Positions 9,372 to 54,203 of a stretch of DNA of 64,000 bases are shown here, piece after piece. This DNA comes from Tubiluchus corallicola (taxonomy: Eukaryota; Priapulida; Priapulimorpha; Priapulimorphida; Tubiluchidae): NCBI GenBank assembly GCA_030141605.1, contig JAQGDQ010000313.1, positions 1 through 64,000 of the forward strand, read 5' to 3'. The notes beneath the pieces were generated by a model. That model did not search any database, was not told the origin of the DNA, and worked only from the letters and a program-made list of their open reading frames with translations. Numbering within the stretch: the first letter of the stretch is position 1; each line of letters opens with the position of its first letter. A program made the translations under genes and the position numbers.

Positions 9372-9377
9372 TTTATT
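9372..9377 (-). terminator. AATAAA overlapping the GPCR stop codon
   Basis: The minus strand reads CAATAAAC, so the TAA stop (9373-9375) lies inside an AATAAA hexamer. If it is used, the mRNA would have almost no 3' UTR beyond the cleavage spacing. A more distal signal near 8845-8851 may be the real one. Confidence 0.3.
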
Positions 9378-10549
9378 GTCGTCCAAAGCGAAACAATTTC
9401 TTGAAAGCCTGGCGAAACTCATTATTTGACAAATTGTACAGAAACGGGTTAAGTGCGGAATTCAAGTAAGACGACCAGAAAAAGAAAGTATACAGACGAG
9501 GTGGCACGAGATCTGGCTTCCAGGCGCTGATGTCAAACACTATATAGAAGGGCGCCCAACAAATCAAAAATGAGGTGGCAATGTAAGCCAACGTGGACAA
9601 AGACCTCCTTACTTTCTTGATGTTGTGTTTATTCGAGCTGCCCAGAACGAAACGGACCTGTGTGGAGTGAGATATCGTAGTGCTCTCGCTCCTAGAATGA
9701 CCTGGTGGAAATAGGCTTTCATTCGTCAAAAAGTTGACCTCTCTTGCTCTATTATTGTTCTTTCGAAGATTCTTGCTTGAAGAGACTTTGGCAACAGTTA
9801 CGTCAGTTTCTGTCTTCTTTTGCACTTGGCCACCACTCCTGTCCGACTTTGATTTTGTACCATCGCAGGGTTTTTCTGCTTGTTCTGATTGTATTTTTTC
9901 TGAGGAAACTTCTTCTCTGGTAGTTTTTTCGTCGCTTTTATGAGCTTTCGACTCCTTTAACCCCTTATTTTCTTTCTTTTCGATGTCTTCTTTTCTTCCT
10001 TTAGCGGCTTCGTTGTCATGCTCTTCCATTTCTATTGTTTTGTCGTTCAAAGATATGACCCTGTTAAGGTCTTTTTTATCTTCGATAGTTGACGAGTTTG
10101 AACTAGGAGGTGACTCACTTCTGATAGTTTCTAGTTTTTCCGAACTTTCAACTTGTTTTCTTGACATAGAGGTTGATGCTGTTGTTTGAAGTTTGATTCT
10201 ATTTCCAAATCGATCATAGTTTGCTATGGAGCTCTTACCGGGCATATGGACATGACCTGACTGCTGGATCTTTGCTCGTGATCTCATAAACATGAGTATC
10301 CTCACATAAGCGCCAACTATAATGATAAGTGGGATATAATGACCGACAATTCCCACAAACAAAATAAATTCTTGGTTTTTACTCGGTTCCCAAATGCAAA
10401 CATTTGGTTGCGACCACTTCCTTCTGTCGGCAATAAATGGCGGAACCCAGATTACCAAAGACAGAACCCAGATAAGGATTATGGATATGATACATTTTGT
10501 AACACTGTGATACTTGCGATAGTGCATCGTCCAGAGAACACACCACAAT
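9373..10549 (-). CDS. GPCR exon 2: helices 4-7 and long third intracellular loop
   Basis: The acceptor TTATTTCAG precedes base 10549. The first base completes the Arg codon and TTG follows, giving DRL then WCVLWTMHYRK in loop 2. Helix 4 (IISIILIWVLSLVIW), helix 5 (FILFVGIVGHYIPLIIIV), about 220 residues of charged loop 3, helix 6 (LAYIATSFLICWAPFYIVF) and helix 7 (YTFFFWSSYLNSALNPFLY) follow. The stop is at 9373-9375. Loop 3 holds many Ser, Lys and Glu residues and is likely a site for kinases and arrestin, by analogy. Confidence 0.85.
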
Positions 10550-12357
10550 CTGAAATAAGAACATGAATAGGCATATTTTTTGTGTTGTGCAATTGAATAA
10601 CTAACACAGCAATTACTGACAGCAAAATGTATTGTTTTAGCGTCTGAAATAGATGAGTTAATTAGGAAATCAAAAGTGTAGGTTTACAATAATTGTGTTG
10701 ATTAAATGCTAAAATGCTATAATTGTGGTTAGTAACAGCAGTTATTGGACTACTACCCTGTAAGACAACAGAGTTTCTTTTTTGTTATACTGCTTGATTG
10801 TTTGGCATGTATTGTCCTGTATATCACTGCACTGTGAAACAATGGGCACGTGCTTTTGTTTATGCACGAAAATAAAACGGAAATGAAACGGTAGCTGGCT
10901 GCATTGTTGCATTATCACATTTCGTAGTTGTTTCTATGAATAGGTGAGCAACCCGCAGGTGTGTTTATTACAACAAGTTCACATAATATACAACAGTGTA
11001 ATAGTACGATGCGATATTATGTTTCTTACATCAACTAGCAAAACATCCAACGTAGATTTGTTGTTGTTTTCTATTGCCGAAGTAATGAACAAATTGCAAA
11101 AACATGTAGCTAAACTGTTAAAGCCAATGTGTTTGTCCTTTTTAGAGAGTAAGCTGTCCATTTTTTAAACAAGTGGGATTTTTAAATATTTGTGATATTA
11201 ATAACATTCAGACAGGCATATTTGTATATAAGTTCTACGACAATTTATTTGTTTACGTATTTCCGTTATTATTCTCAAATTATTTTGTGTAAAATCTTCA
11301 TATGCATATAAACGCGTGTAAAATATAAATATCTAAATCTATAATACTATCCTAATATTCTAAATTATCTCGAAATATCAAAATTGGAATTAAATAATAC
11401 TGCTTACATATGATACAATTTCATTTTATATTTAAACATTGTGTCAGTGTGCCGAACACAAAATCATATGGACCGTTCATAGTTAGAGTAGTCGATTAAA
11501 ATATTATTCTGTTTAATATTATTATTATTATTATTTAATAATTCGCTCATTATAATAATGTTGTTATATAGTAATTCGACCTTTCTTGAACCAAAATTAC
11601 ATCATTTACTTTTAACATTTAGCTTGTGAATTATTTCATCTTTACCTTTTACGTTTTACCTTTAAATCATTATAGATTGTACAGATGACCAAGTCAACTA
11701 GAACTAGTCATTGAGTCTGTGATGCATTTGTTATTGGCAATAGCTCGCTTCATAGTAATTCATTCTTTAAAATATAACAAAAGTCTGTCTGTCTTAAAAT
11801 TGACTACAGCCAATAATAATTCATTTTCGAGGTTGAAATGCTGTCTTGTAACATATTTGTACAATTACTTCCTAACAGTAATTAGTCGTGATTATTTTGC
11901 AGGTGGTTGAATATTATATAAAAAAATATATATACCTATCCACGGAGATAGCCACCATTGTGAACACCGAAGCAAACGTCATGACGAAATCAAAGAAAAT
12001 CCAGGTACTACACAAAGCTTCGCTGAAAGGCCATCTAAGAAGTATCGTGTCTATTGTGTACAACGTCATGGCGGTCAGCGCCACCATCAAGTCAGTTACC
12101 GCCAAGTTAGCGATGTAGAAATTGAAGGTGGTCCTGAGTTTCCTGTTGATACAGATCACCAAGAGTACTGCCAAGTTTCCGAAAATTGTTATTAAAACCA
12201 GGGCGCTCAAAATGATGCTCAAAGATATTGTCCGCAGCGTCCATTCAAAAGGCGGGAGTTCCTCTGTGTCAGTGAGATTTTCTGTGTGTCTAACTGAGAT
12301 GCACTCGTTGTATGCTATTACAACTGCAGTTGCATTTGAGCAGTTTTTATAAAACAT
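9373..12357 (-). CDS. Aminergic GPCR, muscarinic / histamine-H3-like, 532 residues, two exons
   Basis: Exons 12357-11936 and 10549-9373 join in phase 2 to give a 532-residue seven-helix receptor. Visible landmarks are the N-terminal sequon-like N-x-S/T sites, N61 (helix 1 GN), D89 (helix 2), and C116 at the start of helix 3. D123 is the amine-binding Asp position 3.32 and has the same spacing to the DR motif as in muscarinic receptors. Also present are W168 (helix 4), C192 in loop 2, P214 (helix 5), FLICWAPF in helix 6 (W472, P474) and NPFLY in helix 7 (508-512), followed by an amphipathic helix 8. Loop 3 (about 230-450) is long and rich in Lys, Glu and Ser, as in muscarinic and H3 receptors. 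LYTIDTILLRWPF resembles the muscarinic helix 2-loop 1 segment. The muscarinic Asn next to the helix 6 Pro (WTPYN) is replaced by Tyr, so the ligand may not be acetylcholine. The DRY motif reads DRL across the splice junction. An amine ligand and G-protein coupling are inferred from family, not shown. Confidence 0.85.
10550..11935 (-). other. GPCR intron 1 (phase 2)
   Basis: The intron runs from GTATATATA at 11935 to TTATTTCAG at 10550, about 1.39 kb. It is AT-rich and holds a short ATT repeat near 11516-11537. I see no other coding exon in it. Confidence 0.75.
11936..12357 (-). CDS. GPCR exon 1: N-terminus and helices 1-3
   Basis: The ATG at 12357 opens 422 coding bases. The exon covers the extracellular N-terminus, helix 1 (ILSALVLITIFGNLAVLLV), helix 2 (FYIANLAVTDLMVALTAMTL) and helix 3 up to SVDR. 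It ends G-GATAG|GTATAT with the donor at 11935-11934. Reading on past the donor hits a stop after about a dozen codons, which supports the splice. The intron splits the codon after Asp-Arg in phase 2. Confidence 0.85.
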
Positions 12358-13304
12358 TCTGTAAATTGTTCATTAAAAAATTTCTTTATCTTCTAAATTT
12401 ACTGAAAAACGGTGTTATTGTTGATTACAGTGGTCGTTGAATTGTATCAGCATCATCTTTCGGTTTGATGGCAAGTATCGTTATGCGATGACAGATATAA
12501 GGCTTTCTGTAATTTTACAATAACCAATACGCATGCGCAAATATAAGCGAACTAATACTGCTAAAGTGTACGTATAAATTTAAGTGTACGCTAATCATCT
12601 GCTGAATAGTGTTGAAGAGAAGTATTCTGAATATTAACAAAAGAATAGAAGAAAGAACAGGTAGAAATAGAAGGTACAAACAAAAGAAGGGAAGGAAAAA
12701 AGAAAAGGAAATAAAGATATAAACAGAGAAGTGCACACGTGCGCGCTGCTCTAGCAATAAGGAATAGCAAAAAGGAGTGGCAGAAAAACAAAGGCAATAA
12801 TAGTTGCAATGAAAATGGCAATAACAGTAGCAATACTGGCACCTGCAATGACAATTTTGGCAATGATAATGAAGTAACTCCAGTGGCAATGGTAGTAGGA
12901 AGGCAAGCAACTGCAAAGACTATGGTTGGAATTGCCTGACTAGCAACTACAATGCTAATGGCAATAGTTGTTTTTACCTACGCTGCACATTAAACACCTG
13001 TTGTAAATATTGTCATCATTGTCATCACCGCTGTAATCATTAAATTAATCATCACCATAATTAAATAATTAAAGTGCATATTTTTCTAATTAAATTGATC
13101 ATCACAGAGCGTGAAATACAAAAGACTAATACCTAATGCCCAAAGTGTCATTTTTGTAATGACCACAGAATCATCAAAATTTTTCCTTACAGATGCTCGA
13201 CAACATTCTAATGATTGGACAAATACCAAAAATTACATTTTTCTACTCACGGGAAATGGGTGTTGTCACTAACGTTAAGGAATGGTAGTAGATGACCGGT
13301 GACC
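12358..13304. other. 5' flank of GPCR with degenerate AAY/GGC triplet-like tract
   Basis: No coding exon was recognised. From about 12780 to 12970 the plus strand repeats short pieces such as GGCAAT, AGCAAT and TGCAAT with many changes. The two overlapping minus-strand frames here (12515-12916 and 12591-12863) are Leu/Cys/Ser-rich products of this low-complexity sequence and not genes. The GPCR promoter and any noncoding first exon could lie here but I cannot place them. Confidence 0.5.
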
Positions 13305-17529: not shown

Positions 17530-18910
17530 CATTTTATTTAGACAATATTCAACATAAAAAATATTACGCATACAAAGTGACAATTTGTCAAAGAGACTGC
17601 AACAAAAAACCTATAAGGTTGCAGACGTGGCAGCCACCGAAAACACAGAATATTCTACAACAGTTACAAGAGTGATATAAGAGTTATCATTACGAGAGTT
17701 ATCATGCTAAGTTACATTAATGTAGTTGGCATACATAACAATCGGGTAGATTACATGAGTCACTATAAGAAGAGAGATAATGCTCTTTTAATTCTTTAAC
17801 AATGCAACTTAAGCCATAATTCTTACTGTTAAACAACTTAAATTTAATATCACTGGGGAATTTATTAATCATATTAGTGTATGTGAGAGACTGCTCAGCA
17901 TATTTGGGTGTTTTACAATAATGCACTTGTAACTGTTGTCTTGTAAGATAAGAGTGGACATTGAAGTTATAAACCAGTGGCAAATTTTTATGATACATTG
18001 GTAAAAACTCATTTACGTATTTATAATAATATTTCGCAATAGCTGTCAGAGTAAACATCTTTAATCTTTAGAATTTTTAATATTTTAAATATGGGATCTG
18101 TATTTGTAGCATTGTATTTAGCACAAATCATTATTCTTACAACTTTTTTGAGCGATTTTTCTATTCTATTACACTTGGATCCCCACAAGAGTATTCCACA
18201 ATTAATACGACAGCTAACAAGACAAGCATATATTTTCATTTTGATTGAAAGAGGTAAGAAATGATTTAGTCTATTAATTATTCCAAGAGCATTACAAATC
18301 TTTTTATTTAAGACATCTGTATGAGCAGACCAAGACAAATGTTCATCGATGACTATCCCCAGAAATTTATACGGTGTAACACGTTCAATGTAAATATCAC
18401 AAACTTTAAGATCTAAGGCTGGTATCCTTTTGCTTACTTAAGAAAAATCATATATTTTGTTTTAGTTATGTTTAAAGAAAGTTTCTTTTCCAATAACCAT
18501 TTGTTAACTTTTTGCAATTCTTTGTTTATCAAGACATTTAACTGTTCATCGTCACAGTTAACATTTGGATTATGTACGACTGAAGTTGTAAGAAGTGATG
18601 TATCATCTGCATATAATACATATTTAAAGTATTCTGAAGCACGTGTTATGTCATTTAAATAAATAATAAACAAAAGCGGACCTAAAATGTTTCCTTGCGG
18701 GACACCTATATTTATTGGGAGAACATTTTATGAACATTTATCATACACAACACATTGCTTACGATTTCTTAAGTAACTTTCTAAAAATAATATTGCATGC
18801 TCGTTTAAACCACAAATTTTCAATTTATAAAGAAGAACATCATGATCTCATGTGTCAAAGGCTTTAGTTAAATCGAGAAGTATCCCAACCGGGGCATTGC
18901 CAAGATTATA
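17530..18910 (-). mobile_element. 5'-truncated LINE with reverse transcriptase, inserted in BEL/Pao
   Basis: On the minus strand the reverse transcriptase is readable in order: LLDLTKAFDT (around 18880-18850), a GVPQG-like [20 protein letters not shown], and [11 protein letters not shown] with the catalytic Asp pair (18673-18434). Then come a GLxxG-like stretch, the WSAHTDVLNKKI segment and the SCRINCGILLWG segment (18338-18021), and the final thumb-like part (18058-17717). Stops separate these pieces. The 3' end has AATAAA and the CTA tail. The 5' end is cut at about 18910. I place it in the Jockey/CR1 side of LINEs from the LYADDTSLL motif. Confidence 0.8.
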
Positions 18911-30469: not shown

Positions 30470-31983
30470 TCATTTTTTCTGCAGTCTTAAGTTTACTGCA
30501 CTAAGTTTAGGGGAACCACCAATAGATGGCCTACTCAAATCATTTTGCTCATCTAACGTTTTTGACTTATTGGGTCGGTTATCGGTTACAATGTTGCTAT
30601 CAGGACTAATACTGGTTGTCTGTTTTTTCTTTGGACTAGGGTTCGCATTTTTTGCATCTTCATCTTTCGCTGCAGTTCTATCATTGTTTCCACCATAATT
30701 ATAATTAGTATCAACTATTAACAAATCATGGTCTTCCAGTTTAGAAAGAGGTTCTTTAATATTGTCATTCCATTTGTGACTTGGTGTGGTTGGAGTAGTC
30801 TTCTTTGGAGTGATAACCTTTTGTGCCTCAGACTCTGGTAATTCCCAGTTAAAGGAAGTTTCCATCTGTGAAAATACACCAAAGTCCTCATTAGAATCAG
30901 CATTGAAGATGGAACCAGCAACATATGGCATGCAGTAATCATATTCAAAGTCCCACTCCATGCCTCCGATTTCACTCGGAGTTGTGGCTGTTGCACTGTG
31001 GGTTGGTGTCGGTTGTACACATTCCTCAGCTGTTGGTGTCATTCCACTGTCAAAGTTTCGTTTTTCTGGACTAGAATCTGGTGGCTTTTCAGCCTTAGTA
31101 GGAGTTGAAAATTTTGAACTTTTTGATTGTCTCGTATCGTTGCTGGCTAGACTTGGAGTTCGTCCAACTTTCGTTTTCTCGCTTACTGTTTGAACAGACC
31201 CTCTGTGAGCTTCTTTGCTGCTCACATTACTTGATAGCCGGCCACTTTTTTTAGAGTCACCAATAAAGCTTGTTGGTCTAGAAGGTTTATCTACGCTTTT
31301 GGGAATCGCCCCTTTTCCTTTATCAGATTGCGCAGGATTATCTAAATTGTGTTCTATGTAACTGTCGACGTCGTACCTTTTCAGCCGGTTGTCATGATTT
31401 CGCTTTCTACGATGATTTTTCCTATTTGAATGATGATGTTTATGCTTACCATGTTTTCTATCTTCATCACTATGGTAACCACGCTTAGGTGATAGATTAC
31501 ATGTCCCCTGGAGAGGGCTTAAACTGCGTGACCGCCGTTTCATTTTATCATATCGATGCTTGCCTCCCCTAGGTCTCAGCAGTTTGATGTTGTGGAGGTA
31601 ATCATATGGAGTAGCATTTGCATGATACGGACTTGGAATAGACTCGCTCCAACTGGGTGAACTTCCTATGCCAGGAGAGGAGCCATCTTGTGAAAAACTG
31701 TTAAAAATATATGTATGCTCTTTTCGCTTTTCCTCATCATCATCCGAGCTGCCTTGACTGAGTGGTGTAAAACCATCATATTTGGAATGGGGTGACGTAT
31801 TGGTAGTGCCATCCCTAAACAAGTTTAGATGTTTTCGGCGAAGTCGCCGGCTTTTGTGGATATGAACAATCACTAATAGGATCACAATGAAGATAGTGGC
31901 TCCACATAGTCCGATCCCCAACAAACTAATAATGTTATCATACCAAGCTTTTGGTTTCTCTGTTAGATGAAAAGCGGAATCGT
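30470..31983 (-). CDS. THSD1: THSD1-like exon 6: transmembrane helix and cytoplasmic tail
   Basis: The acceptor TTTTTTTTCAG ends at 31984 and the phase 1 join gives DDSAFHLTEKPKAWYDN. The helix LLGIGLCGATIFIVILLVIV (539-558) is followed by HIHKSRRLRRKH, a positive stop-transfer. The tail has an acidic block (SSDDDEEKRKE), Ser-Pro sites (SLSPLQG, NLSPKRG) and a strongly basic His/Lys/Arg cluster at about 655-718 (KHGKHKHHHSNRKNHRRKRNH). An aromatic/acidic stretch with MEWDFEYDYCMPYVAGS and further Thr-Pro sites follow. The stop is at 30472-30470. The tail is longer than that of human THSD1 (about 420 residues, from memory). Confidence 0.85.
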
Positions 31984-34900
31984 CTGAAAAAAAATCATTA
32001 AAATTAACTGAAAATCAGCAATGTAAGTATAATTTGCAATATGATGTTACATATTTCACTTAATCTAACTCGTTATCAGAAAAGAAAGGTTCAGAAGAAA
32101 AATATCAGAAGAAATATGCATAATCCAGTATTAATTAATGGATTTAATAAATGTCCTGTGTGTTTGGGGCGAGTTATTAAAACGAGGTAATTACATGAAA
32201 TTGTCGATGTTGCTAGGTGTCGCGACGGCATCGCAGCTTGTTTACATGCAAATGAGCACAAAACCGTGCTTTGGACTCATGTAGATATATTTATGCTCAT
32301 GTATTATTCGGCACCGCGAAGATTTCCACGAAAATTGTACGCTGAGTAATTTATTAACTGTTAACCCTAAATCTAGTAAAAAGGCATCAGAACTGAAATA
32401 GGATGATTCCCTCTGTATGCAAAAATATTAAAGTAATTTTTAGATATTGGCTAAATATAAGTAACAACCTTACAACAGCTATATTACCCAACAATATCTT
32501 AAAATGAGAGCATTAGACAATCAGAATATGATGTCACAGGTTAGCCAGCGACTTATAAAGTCTTAAAATTTTATCGTCAAAATATTTTGTAGGCACCCAA
32601 TTTGAGATACAGTTCTATGTCGCTCCTGCTTATGAAGTATATGGATGCTTCTTTAAATAAGATTATTAAAAGTATGTACTACTCAGCTTTTTGAAATGCA
32701 TAATTAGAATGTAAAACATGCAAAGAAGTGATTATACTGCAATATGTAGGCTATATTCAAACCAGGGGCCGGATTCATTTACTGTAGTTACGACACTCGT
32801 ATTCTTAAGTGGAGTTTAGGCGCGCGGAAATATTTGCATCGAATTTCATCGAATCCATTCGAAGACATCGAATTCGTCTTATGTCCTTAGTTTGCATCCT
32901 AGTCGCTACTAGCTTCCGCGGGAACTAGACCCGTAATACGGATCAACTGATTCACCTTTTCGCATTTGGTCCTATTTGAGATCCGCATCCGCTAAAAATC
33001 CTAATTTGGTATTAACAGCTATCCGTGCTAATCTAGTAAATTAATTCAAATCCGCGATATGTCGTGATTCACAATCCAGCTTACATGGCTATTTTTAATT
33101 CAAATTCGCACAGTAATGTGCATTTTTAGCTAACATTGGTTTAAATAAATAAAAATATTTTAAATCAGTGGAAATTGCACCTTGTTGCAGTGTGTGGTTT
33201 GACTGGTCCACTGGATGGTTTGATTTTCATTGATTAATTGCAACTGTGAGAGCTAATATAAGCATATTCTCTATCTGATGTTGTTGTATTATTTTAACAT
33301 TAGTATGTTTAATAGCAAGTAAAAGATTTTACTACTGCTGCTGCTTCTATTACTACTAGTACTGTGGTATGTTCGTTTAAAGATTAACGAAGCTAATTAT
33401 TATTTTCATTTCGTTGTTATTCAACCTGGTAGCTTGTGATGAGTATAAATCTGTCATTTTCTTCCCGCAATGCTCCCATTGTTATCTAGTGCAGATTAAT
33501 ATCAAAATTAACATTGAAAATTAAAATCCGCATCCACTGGTTTGATCCGCAACTTTATTTTCGGTAAAAGATCTGCGATCGGATCCGATCCAGCCCACAG
33601 AATCATGGTTCGCTCATCATTGACTCAGACTCAAGCCTCAAGTACGTGCAGGATGTCCACAAAGTCCTTTTACATTTAAATAATATTTAGAATTTCGAAA
33701 AGCTACGTTATTCCCAGGTTCCAGGAAATCTGTCCACCTGCATTTTAATTTTTTTTCAGAATCAAAAATTAACTGAAATTTTTAGGAATCATTTTGACAT
33801 AATCATAAAACAAGTGATGTATTTATGTGCTTTTCAGCGCTCAGCAATTTTATACAAAAGTGTAACTGTTTAGTCTGTAAACGCACATTTAACAGCTTTA
33901 CATTTGTTCATAGAAATATAAAAAATCTATAATAGCATATTTTCCTAATTTTACTGGCTATAGCTGGAAGCAACGGCTTCACCAAAATTGTGGTGTCCAG
34001 TAATAGAGTCCAGTGCCGCTTAGAAATATTTTTTATATTAAGAATTTGTACGAGTATGTCAATGTAATTACATGTTCTTGAGCTGCAGAAAACCCAAAGA
34101 TCTTCACTGGAAGAAATTTTTACTTTTATACAACATGGTCAAAATCCCATGTACTCAGAAACTAAGAAATTATAAATGTGCTGGTAAAATATAAACAAGA
34201 TACCAGTAATATGTTGCTACTATCACGGCGCTTCTGAAATATAAAATTAATCATGTATTTTTATTATAGCAAAATCTTTTTGAAACTTATATAGTTATTT
34301 ACATTCGGCAATACACTGCAGAATCTATTTGTTTTACAATTCGCTTATTATTAACATTTTGCCGAATGTTACACGAAACTCACAGGGTGGATAGCCCCGG
34401 GATGAGGGAATGACGACAGTGTGGTGGCTTCTGACCTTGGATCATTGGTCGCGATCAATGAACGTCGATTTCAAGTGAACAGCATCGCCTCCTAAAGCCT
34501 GGAGTTTAACTGAAAGTGTGCCTCACAGGTATTTAGGTATTGTGAAGTAGATGTGTTCCTGGTGTTTTAAAAAACCTAGGATGGCTTAAGGGCTTTGAGA
34601 TAGGAACCAAACCGTGAAAATTCAGGTAATGTGTTAAAAGGTATGTCTGTAAAGTGTTAAAACGGGGTCATGTCAAGAAAGTAAATGCATTCACATATGT
34701 CCTAGTAATATTTTACAAGCTATGGCCATCCTGTTTACAATGATTACACACACAGTGAGTGTGCCTTGGCGATGTGCATCTAGCCATTAATTGCACCCAG
34801 CGCAGACAGCCCCACCGAGTTAAAGTCCTCCATGGCGTACTCCACCGAGGAACATTCCACCAGAGTACATTCCGCCGTTGTAATACTCCACGGCGAGGTG

Positions 34901-37900
34901 AGGCGCGGCGTCGCGATACATGGCAATCGCCGAACAGTCGAATGTGCACGAAGGCCCCACGTAGTGTTATTTATGTTAATTTAAATATTCGATTTGTTGA
35001 GTTTTAACGATGAGCCGCGCATACGTTCCAAATGTAACGTGAAAAGAAGTACATTCCTTAAGTTCATTACAATAAGATTAAGCTTGATGATGAAATATAC
35101 TATGATATTAACCAGCGAGTTACTTCTCATTCTTTTCTTAAAACTTTATCAAAATTTTATTAAACCTGATAATCACTGTTCTCCTTCTTTTCTTTGTGGA
35201 AACATTAGCTTGTTTTAGTAAATTGCTTCTCAAATTTCTTCTCAGTAAAGACAGTAACCTTAAAACAGCTTATTAAAATAAATCACTAAAAGTAAATAAT
35301 GACTCGAGCTTGCTATAGGTGGCGCGATGTGCCTAGTCAGTTGAACTGGCTTCACTTACCTATAGCTTTATACTTGCATACGAAGCCACTGCCAGTTTTC
35401 AACAACCCAAGCAGGTCTCTCGGCGGAGTTCTGAACTCCAATGTGAGATGATTGGTCGAAGAAAGAAGGGAAGGAGGTACTTGCGTTCCAGAATGCATCG
35501 CTAGGAGGTTGGATGATTTCAAAATGCCGTCTCTGATTCGAAGCCTTTCGCTGTGTTGATTTAAATCAAACATTTCAAAAGAAATGTTAATCCGATGCCC
35601 CATGGGAGCCTAAAGAACGGTCAAGATTAATTGGGCCTGAATAAAACAATGTTTCTTTTGACACAAAAAGAAATTTTTATTTCAGTAAATCTGCCTTAAA
35701 ATGCCAACAAGGGGAACATCAAGTTGTATACAATTCAGGTTGTGGTTGAAGTGTGTCCTGTGTAACATAAAAAACCCTGATTGGCATTTGTACTATAATT
35801 AGCTAATATTCACTTAGATCCAATACATAAATTAAAGTAAAATTGTATAAAACGAAAGGACTAATAAACATTAAATTCATTTAAGATAATACTGAAGTAA
35901 AATAATTATGTAAAGTGTTTAAACGATGACAATAGCAATAACATTAACAATAACAAAACCGTTACTATCGCTTTTGATAATGATGATCGTGCAGATGACA
36001 ACGATCAGGAAGACGATGACTATAATGACAATGATGATACCGATGCTGATTGTGATGATGATGCTGATACTGACGACGTTGACGACAAGAATAAAACTAA
36101 CATGAATAATAAGAAATGTACCTTAATAACCCAGACTATGTTGCCGTTGCAAAGACGATGAGAACCTGTGACTATTCCGCTACTTCTATTTAGAACGCAA
36201 CCGCAGTGACAACTATCCTCCATAATGAAGCCAAGGAGCGGATCTGATGTGGTTGCAACTGAAACAACAAGAAGATGCTGTGGAAAACACGAAAATTCAA
36301 CAGCAATTCGTTAAAATATTGTTCTTTGCAACGATTAAATTGCTACAGTAAACGAGAAAAGTTTATTTATATGAAGAATGTCAATAAAACGGCGATGAAT
36401 AGCTGAATAGTTCCTAATCTAATATAATGATAATCAAATATCTTAAGGAAAAGCCTTTAGCCCTTAAAAGAAAGAAGTTAGAGCGGCAAATGTCATCACT
36501 AGAAAGCTGTGACATTTACGAATCTTTTCTACTAAAAATTTGTTTAGTTGACAGGAAAATTAGGGAGAATTAACTCTATAGCTACAGACGAATATTGCAT
36601 GCAACATCAGTTAAAGCATACTTAAAAGGCGGTATATTTTTTTTTATAAAAGCCATATATATATATATATTTATAAAAGCCAACATTTATAAATATCCAT
36701 GTTGCATTATGGAAATTCCAAATTAAAAATTTCATTTTAAAGTATTATGTGAGTATTTTAAAGTAATTACCATAACATTCGGCATCCTGGCACACGCGCG
36801 ATTCTACCGGTGGTCCACGACAAAACTCCCCACCATTCTGGGGCTTTGGATTATCACAGATGCGGTAACGATTGCTTATGCCTTCTCCGCAAGTAGTAGT
36901 GCAAGATCCCCATTCACTCCAAGAGCTCCATCCTCCATTTATAACTGGATCTAAAAAGAAACGCATATTGTTCAATAATTAGATTGCAAAGGCCATAATC
37001 AAGAACAGTTTAAAAATATCCCATTTTACATTTTATTTTTTTGCAGCATATGTAAACACTGCACTCTTTTGTTTGTTTGTAGTAAGTTCTCTGTTACGTA
37101 GGAAGCCACGTTGTAATTATATTGCACAATGGCTTCCTGAGACCTGCAACAAATGATGACGAACGGCGACAGCTTCACGGACAGTTGCGCGTAGTAAGTG
37201 TTATAAACGACCTTTTTACAACGCAAATCGCACATACCGGTAAATAGGGAGCAAAGGGATCTTAACATAATTTAACCGCATGCTAACTTGTGGCACCACA
37301 TCAATAGCGCTGTTCTTTTAATTCGGATTCTGCTCTTACCTTATTGCATTTATAATTCGCAATCTATTTCAATAGGCAAATATTCTGGAGTATTATAACA
37401 AGGAATGAAAAGTGCAGAAAATATTCGGAAGATGTATAAGAATATTCAAATAATCCGCCCATGAAACATTGAATTGGTGAATTACATTGTATGTACTGAA
37501 TCGGTTCAAGCAGCTCTAAGTGTGTGAGAACTGAACACGTGTGCAGCTTATCTCATGTAATTCCAGGGATTATCGAAACTGGGATAATAAGAGGTTTTTC
37601 TTGTAATGACACATTCTTACTTTCAAGCACGCATGTAGCTCTCTGCAGTCTACTTCTAGAAACTATACTATTACTTTCTTTGTACATGTAATAATGATAC
37701 ATATAATTATTTTAATATACATACGATGCGCGGAATTCAGACGAGAATTAATCAATGACCAATTTAGCGATAAGGATTACGTGAACTTAATGTACAATTA
37801 TCCAATTTCAATCACGTTGAACGACAGTAATGCAGGAATAGAATAAACACTGTTTTACAATCAAAAGAAATAGTAACATTAACAATAATCTTTAAGTTAT

Positions 37901-40900
37901 TACTGTTGCAAGCTTGAAATGTTGAATTTTTTTACCGTGAATTTGGTTTAGAGACTTATTTAATAAAATTATTTTTATACAGTTAGCGCAAACTGCAAAC
38001 TGGGATCGACATTGAATGATAGGACTACTTAAATAGATGTAATGCAGAAAATACGATTAACTTGGCAAACTTAACACCTAATCCTAAACTATTTGTTGCA
38101 GAGAAAAGGCAAAGTATCTAACAAAAAATGTATATGTGATTTGAAAAAATAATCGTAGTAATAGTAGTAGTAGATGTGGTGGTGGTGGTGGTGGTTTATT
38201 GACCATAAAATTAATATTTACAATCTTTGACAGGGATATCAGAATTAAAACATTTCATAGTCCAAAATTCATAATAACAAATTTTCATTCAGTGCCAGTG
38301 AAAAAAAGATATGATAATGACTGAGCTGAAACTAGAAGATGATTCAGCAATGTAGACACACAATTTAAATGAACTTGCAGAATTGTAACACTTCGTTATG
38401 CTACTTGCAAAAATGATTGTGCATTTTTATTCATAAGCTTTTAAAATATTAAAACAAATCTCAAATACCAAATTAGAATTCATAATTGATGTTAAAAATA
38501 TAAAGTCTACATTACTGAATGAGTCTGCTATTAAACGTCAGTCGACAAACGACATGCGGCACATCTCAGGTGTTGAATCCGTAATTAAGGCGATAAAAAA
38601 TTAACTTTATTCTACCCGTGAGTTTAAAAAATAATATGCTAAAGGTATTGCAAAAGATATTGCTTTATATACCGCCTAATATAGAAAAGATGGGTGAATT
38701 GTTGAATTACGATAACATTAAATTGTTGCTGATTTACCCAAGTTTGATAGACTTAGGAAACAGATTAACATTAATGGCTTGCTTGATGTGCAAAAAGTGT
38801 ATTTTGCACTGAAATTCATATTTTGCATCATTCTTAACAAAGAGGCGATATAATCCTGTCATACTACTTAATATTTTGTTTTTTAAATGTTTATTTTATC
38901 CAGTGTAATGCCTTTGGTGAACAGTCACTGATAAGGACTGATAAGATAAGCTTAGATTTTAATATATAAGTGCTAACCAAAGACATAAACGCCATTAGAA
39001 GAACCGATTTAATTTAATTTTAAAAGAGAAAAAATGAACACAGACAGTAGTAAAGGATAGCAACTGTATAACGACAATTACTTAAACCGTTTCATTGCAC
39101 CAATGTAATTATTGTTGTCTTAGATTGAATACGTTCAGGGGTCAATAAAGTGATGCCAGAAAGCAAAGTTGAGATTCAAACTCATTATTAAAAGGGAATT
39201 AGAGAAGCTTCGTTCGAGCTTCTCCTTGCTGTTAGACAATGGGGAAATCGAGGAAATAGTAAAAACCGCAAAGCAATCACATACATTTGAAGCACAAGAA
39301 ACCCCTTCGCTTACATAAAGCTAAAAAAACTCAAAGAAATTTTACACCACTTACATACTGCCTTTTTGCATGCAGGGCTTGTGTTAGCAGTAACGCTGTA
39401 TAAAATTTGTCAATTTAAACTCCTGCGATGACACTTAGGCACAGCCATTTTGATAGTAGGGCGTTTGAGGTAGGTAACATTGAGCGAAGTTTGAAAAAAT
39501 AATCAGAGTATTAGTAGCACACGTGTTACTAACTAAGTAAAATTTTAAATTACTGTGCCTTGTCAACAAGATTAAAAATATTTTTTGGTTAGTGAGTGGC
39601 GCACCCTTGAGTGTGAGTCAACGACATTTTACCAATTGGCACGAACATTTTAAGTTATTATTTCTAGTCTTTCCAGCAATGCTAAGAAAGCGAAGTGCTA
39701 AGTAATATAGATTTACATGGAAAGTTTTTTGGAACATAATTTAATATTGCGTTTTCTTCCCCTGATTTCCGTTTGAGTAGGTGACGTCATGTTATGGTGC
39801 CGTCGGAACGGTATTGCGGAAGATTTAAAATGAAAACAAACAAAAATTCCTTTTACCTCGAGTACGATATGTGCATAAAATTACTGTAATGTAATATAAT
39901 TTCTGAAACCTACTTTGTGTATTCCTTTTCTTACCCTTTAAACACCTTCTTTCCTATTATGTCCTTGCATTCCGTCATTTTTTAAATGTTCATTTAACTG
40001 AGAAAATCCTTCTTTTAAACGCATTGCATTGCGAAGCACCTTGCAAAGTATAATACTGTGGCATCATTTTGCTTTTTCATAGGAATTAAGTCAACTTACG
40101 TTTAGAATGCACGTCTTTAACATTTTCAATCTGAAAACTCTTCAACTCCACGTAGATCCTATATCGTCTTTGTAATTAGGATACCTAGCGCTATCCCACT
40201 TAATGTAAAGCTAAGTCTAAAACATTGGCTTTTATTTACAGTGTTTTATCTCATTGTACTCTTTCACTCAATAAATATCGTTACTCGGCGAGGGCTTACA
40301 TGAGCGAATATGTAAGGAGAACATTATGAAAACACTGAAGTCACCACATTTCCTGTAACTGATGTAACTAATAACTCACTGCAAAGATCAACGAGCCGGC
40401 AGTCTCTATTTCAATCATGCTTTCCGTCGTAGAACATAATCAGTGGGTTATGTAAGTGTCGTAAAGTCAAATTAATGTTGGTCTGAGGCAATTTTATGCT
40501 TTACGGGTGTCGAAGTAATTTAGCCTTCTACTGATTTTACAACTGAATTAATTTCGCCAACGCCATTTTCTGAGTTACATTCACATATACTACAACAACG
40601 TCTTACGCGTGACTATAAACTTATTGCTGTATTTATTTTTATAAACAATAAACTCTGTCAAAGCAAGGGTTATGCGGGAATCTAAGAGTGTCACGACATC
40701 CTAAACAATTCTACATTATTTTCATAATTGCGGCATTTAGGAAGATGTATAGAGATGAGTTCTAAATAAGGCATTGATGAGGAATGTGCGTACTTTGCAA
40801 TACATATATTATGTGTAAGATCACTCAAAAAAGAAAACTGAACTGCGGTGATAATTGAAGACGTTTTGGCGTGTTGGGGGTGTGCGAGTCTTTGGTAAGA

Positions 40901-42725
40901 ATATAAAAAAATCTGAGAGCCTACGACGAGCTAGGTCAAACTGTATGAATTTACTCTGTCAGAATGTACTGGCGGTCAGATAGCAAATAAAGAACTGCAG
41001 GAATAAACTCCGCCATTTTGACGCTCGTCACATGGTACTTTTCACTTCTTTATATGTGCTGAAGCCAGTGCAAACAGTTTTATATGGTATATGAAGATGG
41101 TATGCCCCTACAAAGATCAAAGGACCAGAAGCACTATGCTTTCTGATAGAGCACGTAATCAGCTCTTCACTTCATCTTAAAGATGAAGTAATGTTGTTGT
41201 GGTGACCACAGAAACAATTTAGATTTTTTACTGTACAATAGAATTAATCTCGTCGCTGTTTTGTTTTTAAACCATTTGAAGTTTTCTAAATGTGTTGAAA
41301 AAAGTTTTAAGTTCGGTCGGGCGAATGGTAAAGTAAGCAGTAAAATGAATAAGAACTACATGGTAGGAGATATCAGTAGTTACTGGCAATCACCTTCAGC
41401 CCCCTTCTTGCTGAATTTAATCGTAGCTTTGGCTTCGGCTCACGTTTTCTAGTTTGCAAAATTTCGATAATAAAAGTTTTACATTTTATTGTTTTATGGT
41501 TTATAATATTAGTCTGACCACCTTAGCCAACATTCGACCGCATCTTGTCCTACTCTCACGAGCTGAATCACTTACACATTACAGTGAGAAAAGCTTAAGT
41601 AAATATTGAAGCCTGCTGCAGAAAGATAAGAGACAATCCTTTTGAGTCAGTGGATGTTATCATCTTTTGAGTCTTCTTTCATACTATAGTGTGAAAGCTT
41701 GCGCGACTAAACAATATAATTGCGTGTTATGGCGTCACGGATAGTCAAATACACAACCTATATAGGCCTAGTTCTAATTCAATATAACAGACACTCTGAT
41801 GTAGTCGACCAAACAACATGTAAGAAGAAAGCCCACTAGAATGAAAGCGCAAAAGAAAATTAACATTCCTAAAACTGTATATGGAACACCAAAGTGGAAT
41901 GTAATGCTTGTTTTTAAATATTAATAAATGATTTATGAATATTCAAAATTGATTTATTAATATTCAAAAATGATTTATTAATATTAAAAATAAGCATTAG
42001 ATTCCACTTTGGCGTTCTACAGCTGTAATTACTTGCTAATAAAATGAAGAGAAATTGTTAATATCGTTCCATCATATTTTTGTCAATTCTCGCGCTTTGC
42101 GGACAGCACTTTAACAAATTACGTCGTTGTCCTTTGTAAACCTTCATGTTGTTTTAGCTGTGCTGAAGAAATATCAATATTGAGCGTTGTAATATTACTG
42201 ATGATCAAATTCCACCAAAATGCTGCACATAGATAGAAAAAGCACGTGCAAACTTAAACAAATGACTTATACAATACCCATAAGAAAGGAAAACACCTAT
42301 CATTGACTGATGCCGTGCATAATTTTGTAAACCAATTTTCACCTATGTTTTTGGGTATATGGACGCCACAGAATTTTCAGCACACTATCTCACGCATGTA
42401 GAAAGCCGTCTCAACAATCTCTTAGTGCACATGCGAGGTACTATGACTTTATGCCTAATAAAAAAATCTTGCACATAGTAACCGGAACATAACAAATGTC
42501 TAATATATCGAATGTCTAATATTATATAATATACTAGCAAAGTCAAGCAAAATCCAAATCAAATGGGGCCTATTTTAAATTATAATCATCACACATCATC
42601 ACACAATCACCGTCTTCGACATCATTATTATCATCATACTAATCATCATCGTCGTTATCAACATTATAACTACAATAGCGACAATATTTCAGCTTCAGTA
42701 CATCATCATCATCGTCATCATCACT

Positions 42726-42811
<86 letters not shown>

Positions 42812-45800
42812 TGCCATTAGTGCCATTAAAATCTGAGAACATGCTGATATCGTTTAAGCCCTAGTCGCGGAAATCGAATATAAATACTCCTATATACAGG
42901 CAGAATTAATGTAATGCTAAGAATCTTCATTACTTGACTACGTAAATCATCAAAAATTTTGACGAAATAATAACGCCGCGTGTGAGAAATAAGGTTGGTT
43001 TTAGTGATCCTGCAGAAACAACCATAGTAGATGTGTATAATCTCAGAAACAAATACCCCTCCATCTCCCTTAAATTGTAAAACATTTCTCTGAGTCCTGC
43101 TGGTATATAGTCTCTTACATACTTTCTTACAAGTTGAACTAGGACTGTAATTTTGTATTATACAGATGATTCACGTTAATGATTCCATTCACCTGGTCTG
43201 CCCTGTCAATAAAACTGCCATTATCAAACGTAGCTCTTAGTCAATTTCTTACCTGGCTGCCTATTGAAATACCGCACAGGTAAATCGTGCACCTTCAATA
43301 TGTCGTATAAATCATGCATGAGAGCTAATTAGATGCATTTGCTGAATCAGTTTTATTGATTGATTATTATGGCGCGATGTATAAAATTCAGGTGGGTTGA
43401 CTCATTACTTTAGTCACTAGTAAATGCTATAGACGTGGTATAACTCATGGAGAGTTATGAGTTACATTTATTTGGTATTTTGTGCTCATAAACCTGATAC
43501 GGTATTATATTCACTTAAATATACGAGATTCAAGTTATACTCAAACGAGCAGCTTTACCAGCTGCTTTAGTTCTCGGCTCGAGTAAGACTACGCTCAGAA
43601 TCTGGAACTCAAAATCAAAAATTTTATGCTCGCACGTGTATGTTTATTGTTAAAATATGAAGATTAATTTTTAAATTGAGGCTTCGTGCTTGATATTATA
43701 CATGTATAGTGATATTCAAAGATTTGGTTAGTTTCTCGTAACCAGAATATAACGCTAAAATCAACACGCCTTACACAACGCGAGAAGATACTCTGACCTC
43801 AAATGAAGTTGATGTTTGAAATAAACAAGTTGGAGAAACTTGATCCCGTAACTGTTTAACTTGGTGCTTGAATAAAATAACTCAACACACAAATTGGAAA
43901 CTAGATGCTCAAATTTAATGACACTAAGCTAGCGTATTATGGCTTGATGCGCATATTTAGTAACGCGATTAATGTCAAGCTTAACAACATGGTGCTCAAA
44001 TTGAGTAGCTGTTTACTAAAAAAAGTAACGTAACCTAATTCTCGAATTGAGTAATTTGCAGCTCGAACTGAGAAAATTAGTGTCGTAGTTGGAACTTCAA
44101 ACTCATATTACGTTTGATACTCAAACTGAGTAATTTGAAGCTCGAGCTTAGAAAATTAATGTTATTGAACTTCAAGTTCATGCATTTTTAGTAACTCGAA
44201 GCTCAAACTAACTAAGCTGATTCTTGATCTGATAAAACTGGTGCCATAATTAGAATTCAATGTTCATATTTTGTAAGTTGATACTCAAATTTGTTAATTT
44301 GATGTCTAAGTTGATTAACTAAAATAGGAAATTCGAAATTATACATTTGGGAACTCCTGTACACAGGTACTAACTTCACAAACGACTCATATAATTTTTT
44401 GCTTTACATGTTATTTAACTACAGCAGTTGCATTTTATTTAAGTATTTGAGTTGCTTAAAAGCTTTAACTGGAATTGAGTGTCTAGCTCAGTTATTTTTG
44501 GAACGAACAGGTTAAGAAAGTTGATGAGAGATTAATATAGAGTATCAGAAGAACTTAAACAACACTTACCGTAAACTGGTTCAGTATAAATGCAATCTCT
44601 GGTTTGCTCGTTGACAGCACCACGGCTGCTGACGCTTACATAAGAAAAACAATAGGAAAAATGTCTTTTAGAGAAAAGCCAGCACTTGAACAGCACGTGC
44701 GACTGTCCTAGTTTCACCCTCCTCTCTGTTACGTACTCCTCACGAATGGGCTTCGCTAGGGAGCTTACATTCTCGGAGGATCTAGAGTAGAGCCGTATCA
44801 TGTCCTGAGATCCGATACATGCTGGATAGTTGTACTGAACACTTATCACGTTATCACAGGGAAATATACTATTAGCGTCGACTTTTATTAAATATTCTTT
44901 ACTCCAAGTCACATGCATCGGGTTACTTTTAGATATAATGCTGCTATTATCGTTACGACTATTAGTTTTATAAAACACTACATACAACCCTGCCACTTCA
45001 AAAACATGGCACGGTAGTATCCATTGGTCACTGGTCAACGTCCAGAATTGACTAATGACTTCTCTGTAAACTACTCGCGATTTTGTATAGTTTGTCTCAG
45101 GCTTGTAATACACTAATTCCAACCAGTTTGTTTGAGTTGTGTCGTGTGGACTACAGGGAGCACTATAAGCGGTCAGGGTGAGAATGACGCTTTCAGTCTG
45201 TGCATTATGAGTAGATGGTAGTGTGAGGTCAATTCTAGGCCATTGCACTGTCATCACATTGCTTTCGGTCAGCATTGTATTTGAGTCGTCATACATTTCA
45301 AATAAATAGTCTCCTGCTCGATAGATGGCACCGCAGCTGAAGGAAAGCTGCGCCTTGGAGATGCCAAGAGGCAGTTCTACTCGTGCGAGGGAACGATTGC
45401 CACCAACCTAAAAAGCATTAGAACAACTAAGGTCTTAAAGATCCAACCTGATTGCGTAAAGTTTTTTGTTACACATCAGCCAACTAAACATAATATACAC
45501 CACACACAGCTTTGTTTATAATGAACGTAACTTCAACTGCGACAAATATTTTATCATTTTTAAAAAGTAGCAAATTAATTTCAGTGGAAATATAATTTTC
45601 TCTTATGTTCGATTTTTTCATTTCTTGTGGAACGAGTTGCCTGATAACCAATTACTGATACCAATGCTTATAAAGTAGTTATATCTACCTATATAAATGA
45701 CTTAGGTGATTGTAATGTATGTAACACCTGTCGAACTTTGCAGGTTTGAGTAAATTAACAAGAACTGTATCGAAAAACATGTAACAATAGCTACATTAAA

Positions 45801-45909: not shown

Positions 45910-46973
45910 TGATTTGAGTAATAGTTTTGATTTAAAAGTTTTCATATTTGTCTTTGTGTTTTTGAAGGTCAGTATAGTGTCCATCATTGTCCGAAGACTG
46001 ATTTACAGTTTTCAGTACTTCACACGAGAGCATTTGAAATTGAAATAATGATAAATTAAGTAAAAAAAGAAATGACCTATTGATTGGTCACCCTAGTCAC
46101 AGTGCAGCTAACGTTTGTTTGTCGAAAATAAATTTGTAATGCGGTTTCACAAAACTGAAATAATAGAAATATGCACACTTGACAGTAACAAAATAGATTA
46201 AGTTTTTTAATTCTACGAGCAGCGTACAATAGAAAACAGCAACGCTATCTGCACATCTTATTTGGTATTTGGTTGTTGAATAGACCGATAACATGCCATT
46301 TAAAAGGAAAGAACGTTTATCTTTGAGATTAGTCTGCGGATGAAGTATAAAGATTTTGCTCGGTTGCACAACCATACTATATAGTCAAATATTGTTAAAT
46401 AAATCATCTAAGAAATGGGGACTACAATTTAGATAGAAGTGCAGGACGATTCGTTAATTGTTAAACTTACCGCGTTATTTATGCAACATAATTGTGCAGG
46501 AGTTAAAAATGTATTTAAAAACGTAAATGCCAAAATCATCACCACAGGACTAAACACATTACTAAAAATAAGTCTTTGTTCACTTAGAAACACAGAAGCA
46601 TGTTATTTCGTAAATACAAAACGCGTGTTCTATACTTACTGTCATGTTCCCTAATAATTCACGAATAGTATTTTTATGTATTAGTCACTTTAAATAAGAC
46701 TGTTCGACTGTTACATTGTTTAAAAAGGGAACACATTTCATTCGGAAATAATATTTTGACTAAATGCCATTTAGGCCTACCGTTAATTACTTAAACTTGG
46801 AATCAGTGTATAATAAGTCAAACCTGGATAAGTCGGACGAAACCTCCTGGATAAAAGGATGAGTCGAGTGGCAAACTGTACCGCACATCAATATCTCCAG
46901 AAAGAAGCTCATAATTTGAAGGTGCTGTGATGTTGTACGCCAACGCTATGACTAAGAAAAGGAGAAACTGCAT
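30470..46973 (-). CDS. THSD1: THSD1-like type I membrane receptor with extra CUB domain, 1022 residues, six exons
   Basis: Coding exons: 46973-46824, 45407-44570, 36950-36771, 36258-36122, 35609-35360, 31983-30470. Their phases (0, 1, 1, 0, 1) all agree and the sum is 3069 bases (1022 codons plus stop). The protein has a signal peptide (1-17) and an ectodomain (18-329). Two stretches resemble vertebrate THSD1: SCGAIYRAGDYLFEM, and FKCWLFSKRHFSYCF followed by SSRG. A TSP1 repeat follows (331-390, WSSWSEW then six Cys), then a CUB domain (about 404-518), one transmembrane helix (about 536-558) and a 461-residue Ser/Lys/His-rich tail. Vertebrate THSD1 is an endothelial adhesion-linked protein, shown to bind talin, with one TSP1 repeat and, as I know it, no CUB. 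The orthology is inferred from domain order and the ectodomain motifs. The function in this animal is unknown. Confidence 0.85.
31984..35359 (-). other. THSD1-like intron 5, with GC-rich degenerate repeat and rearranged DNA
   Basis: There is no further coding exon. Around 32975-33090 and 33520-33600 short words such as ATCCGCATCC and GATCGGATCCGATCC recur, in a way that recalls a decayed non-autonomous DNA element. About 34795-34925 is a degenerate GC-rich repeat (separate entry). Confidence 0.5.
34795..34925. repeat. Degenerate GC-rich minisatellite (TCCACCGNRG..AYAT-like units)
   Basis: On the plus strand, words such as CTCCACCGAGGAACAT, TCCACCAGAGTACAT, TCCGCCGTTGTAATAC and TCCACGGCGAGG follow one another at about 14-16 bases. 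The composition differs sharply from the AT-rich intron around it. On the minus strand one frame gives Gly-Gly repeats, but it is too short to call a gene. Confidence 0.55.
35360..35609 (-). CDS. THSD1: THSD1-like exon 5: C-terminal half of CUB domain
   Basis: Acceptor TTCTTTAG at 35610; donor GTAAGT at 35359; in phase 0, out phase 1, 250 bases. The exon reads APMGHRINISFEMFDL, then LRIRDG, TQVPPSLLSS, HLTLEF and GSGFVCKYKAI. This is the CUB consensus 'P.G..I.L.F..F.L......L.I.DG......S....L...F.....GF...Y'. The second Cys pair common in CUB domains is mostly absent, leaving one near the end (FVCKY). Confidence 0.85.
36122..36258 (-). CDS. THSD1: THSD1-like exon 4: N-terminal half of CUB domain
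   Basis: The acceptor TTGTTTCAG ends at 36259 and the donor is at 36121 (ATTAAG|GTACAT). In phase 1, out phase 0, 137 bases. After a short linker (VATTSDPLLGF) the exon reads CGCVLNRSSGIVTG and CNGNIVWVIK. This is the CUB start: first Cys, Gly-Ile, second Cys, then the W-x-I strand. Confidence 0.8.
36771..36950 (-). CDS. THSD1: THSD1-like exon 3: thrombospondin type 1 repeat
   Basis: This 180-base exon is phase 1 at both ends, flanked by TTTCTTTTTAG and G|GTAATT. It encodes one TSP1 repeat: GGWSSWSEWGSCTTTCGEG, then RYRICDN, EFCRGP, ESRVCQ and AECY. The three Trp form WxxW C-mannosylation sites, and all six Cys of the fold are present. A symmetric phase-1 exon is typical of shuffled extracellular modules. 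Confidence 0.9.
38154..38250 (-). mobile_element. Probable LINE/SINE 3' tail with (GGT)n microsatellite
   Basis: The minus strand reads TTTATGGTCAATAAACC followed by CCA units and then CTA/TTA units. That is a poly(A) signal plus a simple-repeat tail, as in LINE 3' ends. The body upstream (higher coordinates) is not recognised. Confidence 0.35.
41884..42017. mobile_element. Small hairpin MITE-like element
   Basis: The left end GAACACCAAAGTGGAATGTA (41884 on) mirrors the right end, which closes with TTCCACTTTGGCGTTC (to 42017). The inverted arms run about 45 bases. The centre holds three near-copies of AAATGATTTATTAATATTC. It could fold into a near-complete hairpin. I could not define a target duplication. 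Confidence 0.75.
42590..42811. repeat. ATC trinucleotide microsatellite, partly degenerate
   Basis: Degenerate CAT/ATC units from about 42590 become a pure ATC run of about 85 bases ending at 42811. It yields poly-His on one strand and poly-Asp on the other, neither a real protein. Confidence 0.95.
43800..44330. repeat. Diverged tandem repeat, period about 79 bp
   Basis: GAGTAATTTGCAGCTCGAAC at 44049 and GAGTAATTTGAAGCTCGAGC at 44128 are 79 bases apart and are both followed by AGAAAATTA and, later, ACTTCAA and CTCAT. Weaker copies continue on both sides (words such as GATACTCAAA, TGGTGCTCAAATTGAG). The copies are old. Confidence 0.7.
44570..45407 (-). CDS. THSD1: THSD1-like exon 2: main ectodomain
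   Basis: An acceptor (CTTTTTAG) ends at 45408 and the exon starts GTT GGT GGC. It is open to GTTTACG|GTAAGT (donor at 44569), 838 bases, phase 1 out. Residues 51-329 hold two Cys-paired sandwich-like repeats: SCGAIYRAGDYLFEM in the first half, and LFKCWLFSKRHFSYCF with SSRG and DCIYTE in the second. Both resemble the two ectodomain halves of vertebrate THSD1. Confidence 0.85.
45408..46823 (-). other. THSD1-like intron 1 (phase 0)
   Basis: The intron runs from GTTTGAC to CTTTTTAG, about 1.4 kb. It holds a TAC microsatellite at 45841-45908 and no coding exon that I recognise. Confidence 0.7.
45841..45908. repeat. (TAC)n microsatellite
   Basis: About 22 uninterrupted TAC/ACT units. It produces a poly-Tyr frame on the plus strand, which is not a gene. 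Confidence 0.95.
46824..46973 (-). CDS. THSD1: THSD1-like exon 1: signal peptide and start of ectodomain
   Basis: The ATG at 46973 is followed by MQFLLFLVIALAYNITA, a clear signal peptide, and then NYELLSGDIDVRYSL. The segment is 50 codons long and ends at CAG|GTTTGA (donor at 46823), phase 0. Reading on gives a stop two codons later. It joins exon 2 without a frame change. The frame was too short to stand out as an ORF. Confidence 0.8.
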
Positions 46974-53402: not shown

Positions 53403-53531
53403 CTATTTTTGGCTTCCTCCCCAGCGTGCTGTGTGGAAAACTTGAATTCGTCAGCAGAGTTTTAGTGGGTTCAGTTCAGTTCAGTTCAGTTCAATAATAA
53501 GACTTGTAGAGTGTGTACATTTTTTTGCAAA
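53403..53531 (+). promoter_or_regulatory. Presumed 5' region of the light-chain gene with CArG/MEF2-like box and (GTTCA)5
   Basis: CTATTTTTGG at 53403-53412 is one base from both an SRF CArG box (CC-A/T6-GG) and a MEF2 site. Both factors commonly drive muscle and cytoskeletal genes. It lies about 120 bases before the ATG. Five perfect GTTCA units occupy 53469-53493. Neither the start of transcription nor factor binding is shown. Confidence 0.35.
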
Positions 53532-54203
53532 ATGGAAGAAAAGGGAGATAAGTCGAAGGCGTCAGTCAAAAAGAAAAAAACAATTATGCAAAAGAAAAGG
53601 GCACAAAGAGTGACTTCAAATGTCTTTGCTATGTTTGATCAACCTCAAATACTGGAATTTAAAGAAGCATTTAATATGATAGATCAGAACAGAGATGGTT
53701 ACGTAGACAAAGAGGATCTTCACGATATGCTAAATTCTCTTGGTAAAGAAGTGACGGATGAATATTTAGAAGAAATGGTTGGACAATCACCAGGTCCTTT
53801 GAATTTCACAATGTTTTTGACTTTGTTTGGTGAAAAGTTAAACGGAACTGATCCGGAGGATGTTATAAAGAACGCTTTTGCTTGTTTTGATCATGACCAG
53901 AAAGGTGTGGTGAGTGAGGATTATCTGAGAGAATTGCTAACCACACTTGGCGATCGGTTTAGTGACGAATACGTCGATGAAATCTTCAAAGAGGCGCCAA
54001 TAAAAGGTGGAAACTTTGACTATGTAGAATTTATTCGCATTCTTAAGCACGGAACGAAGGAAAAAGACGAAGAGCAGGTTATCAAGCCAGGCCAGCAGGA
54101 CGCGGAAATGGTAAAGCCAAAAACATCAAAATCAAAGACGGATAAAACAGGACATGTTGATGCATCAAAGCCTCCAAAATCAGGAAAAACTATTAAAAAT
54201 TGA
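53532..54203 (+). CDS. Myosin regulatory light chain, non-muscle/smooth-muscle type, 223 residues, intronless
   Basis: The protein is an EF-hand regulatory light chain that binds the neck of a class II myosin heavy chain. The ATG at 53532 (AAAATGG context) is chosen because upstream in-frame codons have no ATG. Its phosphorylation site reads [15 protein letters not shown], with T28 and S29 matching Thr18/Ser19 of vertebrate light chains, so kinase regulation is likely. EF-hand 1 ([12 protein letters not shown], 51-62) keeps a good metal loop. The later EF-hands are degenerate as usual ([12 protein letters not shown] keeps part of one). [33 protein letters not shown] and [12 protein letters not shown] are near-identical to vertebrate sequence. 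After the usual end ([12 protein letters not shown]) there is an extra Lys/Ser/Thr-rich tail of about 42 residues, and the N-terminus is about 10 residues longer than usual. No intron interrupts the frame. Confidence 0.95.

Follow-up and report, generated by a model that had tools for sequence, protein, structure and literature searches.

We analysed a window of 64,000 bases (bases 1-64000 of a contig of 278,565 bases), which belongs to an assembly of 343.5 Mb in 2344 contigs that served as the genome for the searches described here. Profiles of Haemocyan_bet_s (PF14830) and Eryth_link_C (PF16915), regarded as markers of molluscs and annelids, had no match in this assembly; they gave no signal in any control genome either, so that neither group is excluded by this result. 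A search for COX1 was negative as well, with a signal in 8 of 14 controls, and the assembly probably lacks the mitochondrial genome. On the minus strand of the window lies a predicted gene for a THSD1-like protein, composed of six predicted exons that run from 46973 to 30470 and join in phase to give one open frame of 1022 residues (3069 coding bases, stop included). The exons are:

46824..46973, minus strand: exon 1, residues 1-50, with the start codon, a likely signal peptide (open frame, hydrophobic N-terminus) and the start of the Ig-like N-terminal region
44570..45407, minus strand: exon 2, Ig-like region of THSD1 type, covering residues 51-329 and one base of the codon shared with exon 3 (Pfam THSD1_D3 and THSD1_N)
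36771..36950, minus strand: exon 3, one TSP1 repeat, phase 1-1 (Pfam TSP_1 and reading of the sequence)
36122..36258, minus strand: exon 4, a linker followed by the beginning of the CUB domain, phase 1-0 (aligns with the N-termini of cubilin CUBs)
35360..35609, minus strand: exon 5, which contributes most of the CUB domain and lacks the calcium triad and the cysteines C3 and C4, phase 0-1 (Pfam CUB)
30470..31983, minus strand: exon 6, covering the juxtamembrane stretch, the transmembrane helix at about residues 536-561, the cytoplasmic tail and the stop codon

All five acceptors carry AG and all five donors carry GT; exon 1 has a donor that looks weak (CAG/GTTTGACT). From exon 3 to exon 6 the phases are 1-1, 1-0, 0-1 and 1 and the frame stays open, and the two exons of the CUB (1-0 and 0-1) form together a symmetrical phase 1-1 module. 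When exons 4 and 5 are skipped together the frame is kept, giving 893 residues and restoring a TSP1-membrane layout; skipping of exon 4 or exon 5 singly leads to an early stop.

Elsewhere in the window we observed the following features:

9373-10683, minus strand: biogenic-amine-type GPCR in a frame of 436 residues, whose best solved relatives are the dopamine D2, alpha-2A adrenergic and 5-HT1B receptors
11914-12369, minus strand: frame that reads like the first exon of the GPCR at 9373-10683
18434-18727, minus strand: retroelement reverse-transcriptase fragment (Pfam RVT_1, 44.9 bits)
53466-54200, plus strand: single unbroken frame for a myosin regulatory light chain of smooth/non-muscle type, extended at either end by Lys/Ser-rich stretches (myosin regulatory light polypeptide 9 matched at E 6.8e-83)

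The last of these may represent a retrocopy or a gene whose coding part has no introns.

The original prediction described a THSD1-like protein with one added CUB domain, and the Pfam search of the whole predicted protein agrees with this description, TSP_1 (48.2 bits), CUB (PF00431, 33.2 bits, cut-off 21.4) and THSD1_D3 (35.6 bits, cut-off 27) being all over their cut-offs. THSD1_D3 reached 38.9 bits for exon 2 alone and 40.3 bits in the genome search, where four places were found at E <= 10 and only the locus described here exceeded the cut-off (21.0, 18.3 and 16.3 bits for the others). The THSD1_N profile is marginal, with 27.2 bits for the whole protein against a cut-off of 27, 29.4 bits in two stretches for exon 2 alone and 24.1 bits, under the cut-off, for residues 1-109 alone. 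Three places matched THSD1_N in the genome at E <= 10, none of them over the cut-off: the THSD1-like locus obtained 19.5 bits and a place on another contig, which contains a stop, 20.2 bits. Since THSD1_N stays under its cut-off genome-wide, the assignment to THSD1 is based on D3, TSP1 and the layout of the protein. From the weak match to the THSD1 models the animal can be taken as probably an invertebrate. For the second THSD1 domain (D2) no Pfam match was found in its region at E <= 10, a threshold at which HMMER already discards, through its filters, the majority of matches beyond about 0.1.

The TSP1 exon contains six cysteines and the motifs WSSWSEW and CTTTCG, which we take to be the usual sites of C-mannose and O-fucose. 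Among solved structures this repeat matches thrombospondin-1 and, ranking after it, UNC5 chains. UNC5 netrin receptors have Ig-like domains, two TSP1 repeats, a single transmembrane helix, ZU5 and death domains in the tail, and no CUB. A receptor of UNC5 type was ruled out for this gene, as Pfam found neither a ZU5 nor a death domain in the tail (exon 6). One hydrophobic helix lies near residue 540, and beyond residue 20 the windows of 19 residues with a mean hydropathy >1.6 occur only in exon 6; both the TSP1 repeat and the transmembrane helix are present, with the CUB placed between them. Counted from residue 567, the tail comprises 456 residues, 73 of them Lys/Arg vs 59 Asp/Glu. Exon 6, including this tail, gave no Pfam match, and no domain linking the tail to talin or FAK was found in it. 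The tail also contains an acidic-aromatic stretch, EWDFEYDYCMPYVAGSIF (30905-30958, minus strand), that could be an adaptor-binding motif.

It had also been proposed that exons 4 and 5 join in phase to give one CUB between the TSP1 exon and the transmembrane exon, and we found that phases, splice sites and Pfam agree in this respect, the coordinates proposed at that time (35360-36950) being exact for TSP1 plus CUB. With the 15 residues that follow them, exons 4 and 5 score 37.2 bits against the CUB profile (cut-off 21.4), exon 5 on its own scores 29.1 bits and exon 4 on its own has no match. The join is supported because exon 4 lifts the score of exon 5 from 29.1 to 37.2, a gain of about 8 bits (or of 4 with the score of the whole protein). 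The Pfam scan of the introns downstream of exon 2 covered three intervals on the minus strand (36951-44569, 35610-36770 and 31984-35359) and yielded no further domain at E <= 0.01. Solved CUB structures matched by the protein are those of cubilin, neuropilin-2, enteropeptidase and PCPE-1; the cubilin match of E 1.6e-21 is a sum over several CUBs of one chain, whose best single stretch has an E of 0.00026.

The genome is rich in CUB domains, with at least 148 places at E <= 0.001 in a profile search in which 150 of the 210 candidates were scored. The CUB of the THSD1-like gene is absent from these 148 places, presumably as it was not among the scored candidates. Many CUB exons are clustered on few contigs (C503, C1957, C982, C41 and C693), so that tandem expansion or genes with many CUBs may be suspected in this animal. 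When the protein of exon 5 was compared with its own genome at E <= 1, five matches were obtained, namely exon 5 itself and four others with E values of 0.148, 0.186, 0.193 and 0.291.

Twenty CUB stretches from 16 contigs were picked by hand from the 148 places and aligned with the CUB of the THSD1-like protein; these picks are mostly high-scoring, cover the second half of the profile and lean to canonical CUBs, so that the contrast described here may be overstated. According to PMC10214685, the ligands of a calcium-binding CUB (cbCUB) are one Glu and two Asp. In the columns that we assigned to these ligands, by our own reading of the alignment and not by that paper, the first holds E in 17 of the 20 sampled CUBs, the second D in all 20 and the third D in 17, vs N452, E456 and P497 in the THSD1-like CUB, which therefore lacks the ligand set of a cbCUB. 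The residues that would form the C3-C4 disulfide are also missing: the C3 column is a cysteine in 18/19 of the sampled CUBs and Q453 here, and the C4 column a cysteine in 19/20 and S475 here. Ahead of the ligand and cysteine columns the hairpin is shortened, and near the end of the domain a cysteine, C513, and an insertion of six residues have no counterpart in any of the 20 sampled CUBs. R461, T491 and C513 depart from the commonest residue. The columns of the fold core are kept (F446, F449, D462, G463, P480, S485, L492, F494, G510 and F511). The C3-C4 disulfide is not required for the CUB fold, since CUB2 of ADAMTS13 is also without it (PMC8051872). With regard to the change in ligand choice that had been proposed, the loss of the calcium triad makes the usual calcium-dependent mode of CUB ligand binding unlikely for this domain, which may serve as a spacer or as a docking surface that does not depend on calcium.

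Among known proteins, vertebrate THSD1 (Tmtsp) is alike in the THSD1-type Ig-like region, the one TSP1 repeat, the single transmembrane helix and the intracellular tail, and to our knowledge it has no CUB. The word CUB does not occur in the main text of a review on THSD1 (PMC12189160). According to PMC12189160 and PMC10889294, vertebrate THSD1 has a role in focal adhesions.

With regard to the CUB itself, those of cubilin and neuropilin-2 are the closest among domains of solved structure, although the typical calcium site and cysteines are not kept in the THSD1-like CUB; cubilin and neuropilin-2 also have other architectures than the protein described here. In ADAMTS13, TSP1 repeats are followed by CUBs, but this is a plasma protease with two CUBs, without a membrane anchor and without the Ig-like region of THSD1. 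Its C-terminal region resembles the THSD1-like CUB in that its CUBs are without calcium and CUB2 is without the second disulfide, and these CUBs act by docking onto ADAMTS13's own Spacer domain (PMC8051872).

In this sense, we consider it likely that the gene encodes a single-pass adhesion receptor of THSD1 type, with an Ig-like region, one TSP1, one calcium-independent CUB, a transmembrane helix and a long basic tail; its assignment as an adhesion receptor, made by homology, is probable. The Ig-like and TSP1 part would contact the matrix or neighbouring cells, and the tail would engage the machinery of adhesion, like that of vertebrate THSD1 via talin and FAK. PMC10889294 describes THSD1 as interacting with talin and preserving FAK activity, and the preservation of focal-adhesion stability is attributed to it there and in PMC12189160. 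The CUB could act as a membrane-proximal spacer or docking module independent of calcium, in the manner of the ADAMTS13 CUBs; as ADAMTS13 is the nearest precedent, we would favour such a role over that of a new ligand-binding head. A CUB-less isoform resembling the vertebrate protein could arise if exons 4 and 5 were skipped together.

Regarding the origin of the CUB, we see the chances as evenly balanced that the domain is ancestral, in which case invertebrate relatives of THSD1 would generally have a TSP1-CUB-membrane layout, the vertebrates would have lost the CUB and the protein described here would be ordinary for its group. Exon 5 has no close relative in the genome, the domain diverges strongly from the 20 sampled CUBs, as is expected of an old domain, and a phase-1 module permits a clean loss, although the divergence could also stem from fast change after a gain. 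Such a gain, in which a phase 1-1 module would have been inserted between TSP1 and the membrane within the lineage of this animal, is quite possible but falls a little short of an even chance. Exons 4 and 5 do form a symmetrical 1-1 module, and the CUB matches in the genome, at least 148, are possible sources; however, exon 5 used as a query finds no recognisable source CUB in the genome. A recent copy from another gene of the same genome is unsupported, the next match of exon 5 being at E 0.148, and is disfavoured because exon 5 lacks a close relative and the domain diverges at near-invariant CUB positions.

The two exons might also be an optional or unused cassette, the usual protein being TSP1-membrane as in vertebrates. 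The frame survives their joint skipping, but open frames, AG/GT sites and kept fold-core residues indicate an exon pair under protein-level constraint, and we regard this reading as improbable. That the CUB exons come from another gene or from an assembly error is very improbable indeed, as they lie on the same strand with matching phases at both ends, about 8 bits are gained at the exon 4-5 join and the flanking introns gave no other Pfam match at E <= 0.01 on the minus strand; nothing was found that speaks for this reading. Returning to an ancestral CUB, a fuller scenario may be put forward tentatively, which we hold with rather low confidence: an ancestral bilaterian THSD1 would have had a calcium-free, membrane-proximal CUB, which this animal would retain as an obligatory module of two exons and which the vertebrates would have dropped upon recruitment of the receptor to endothelial focal adhesions.

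A direct search of the open-access literature for THSD1 together with a CUB domain led only to PMC5733214, which does not connect them; in its accessible text the term "CUB domain" occurs only in the title of a reference on ADAMTS13. Our analysis confirms a variant architecture of a known receptor family, a variation that is real but modest. THSD1 is under study as a gene of vascular integrity and intracranial aneurysm, as stated in PMC12189160. The occurrence of a CUB-bearing relative in an animal that is probably an invertebrate suggests that the receptor is not confined to the endothelium of vertebrates. It also constitutes a natural domain swap for probing the role of the membrane-proximal ectodomain, and the exon phases make the isoform test simple.
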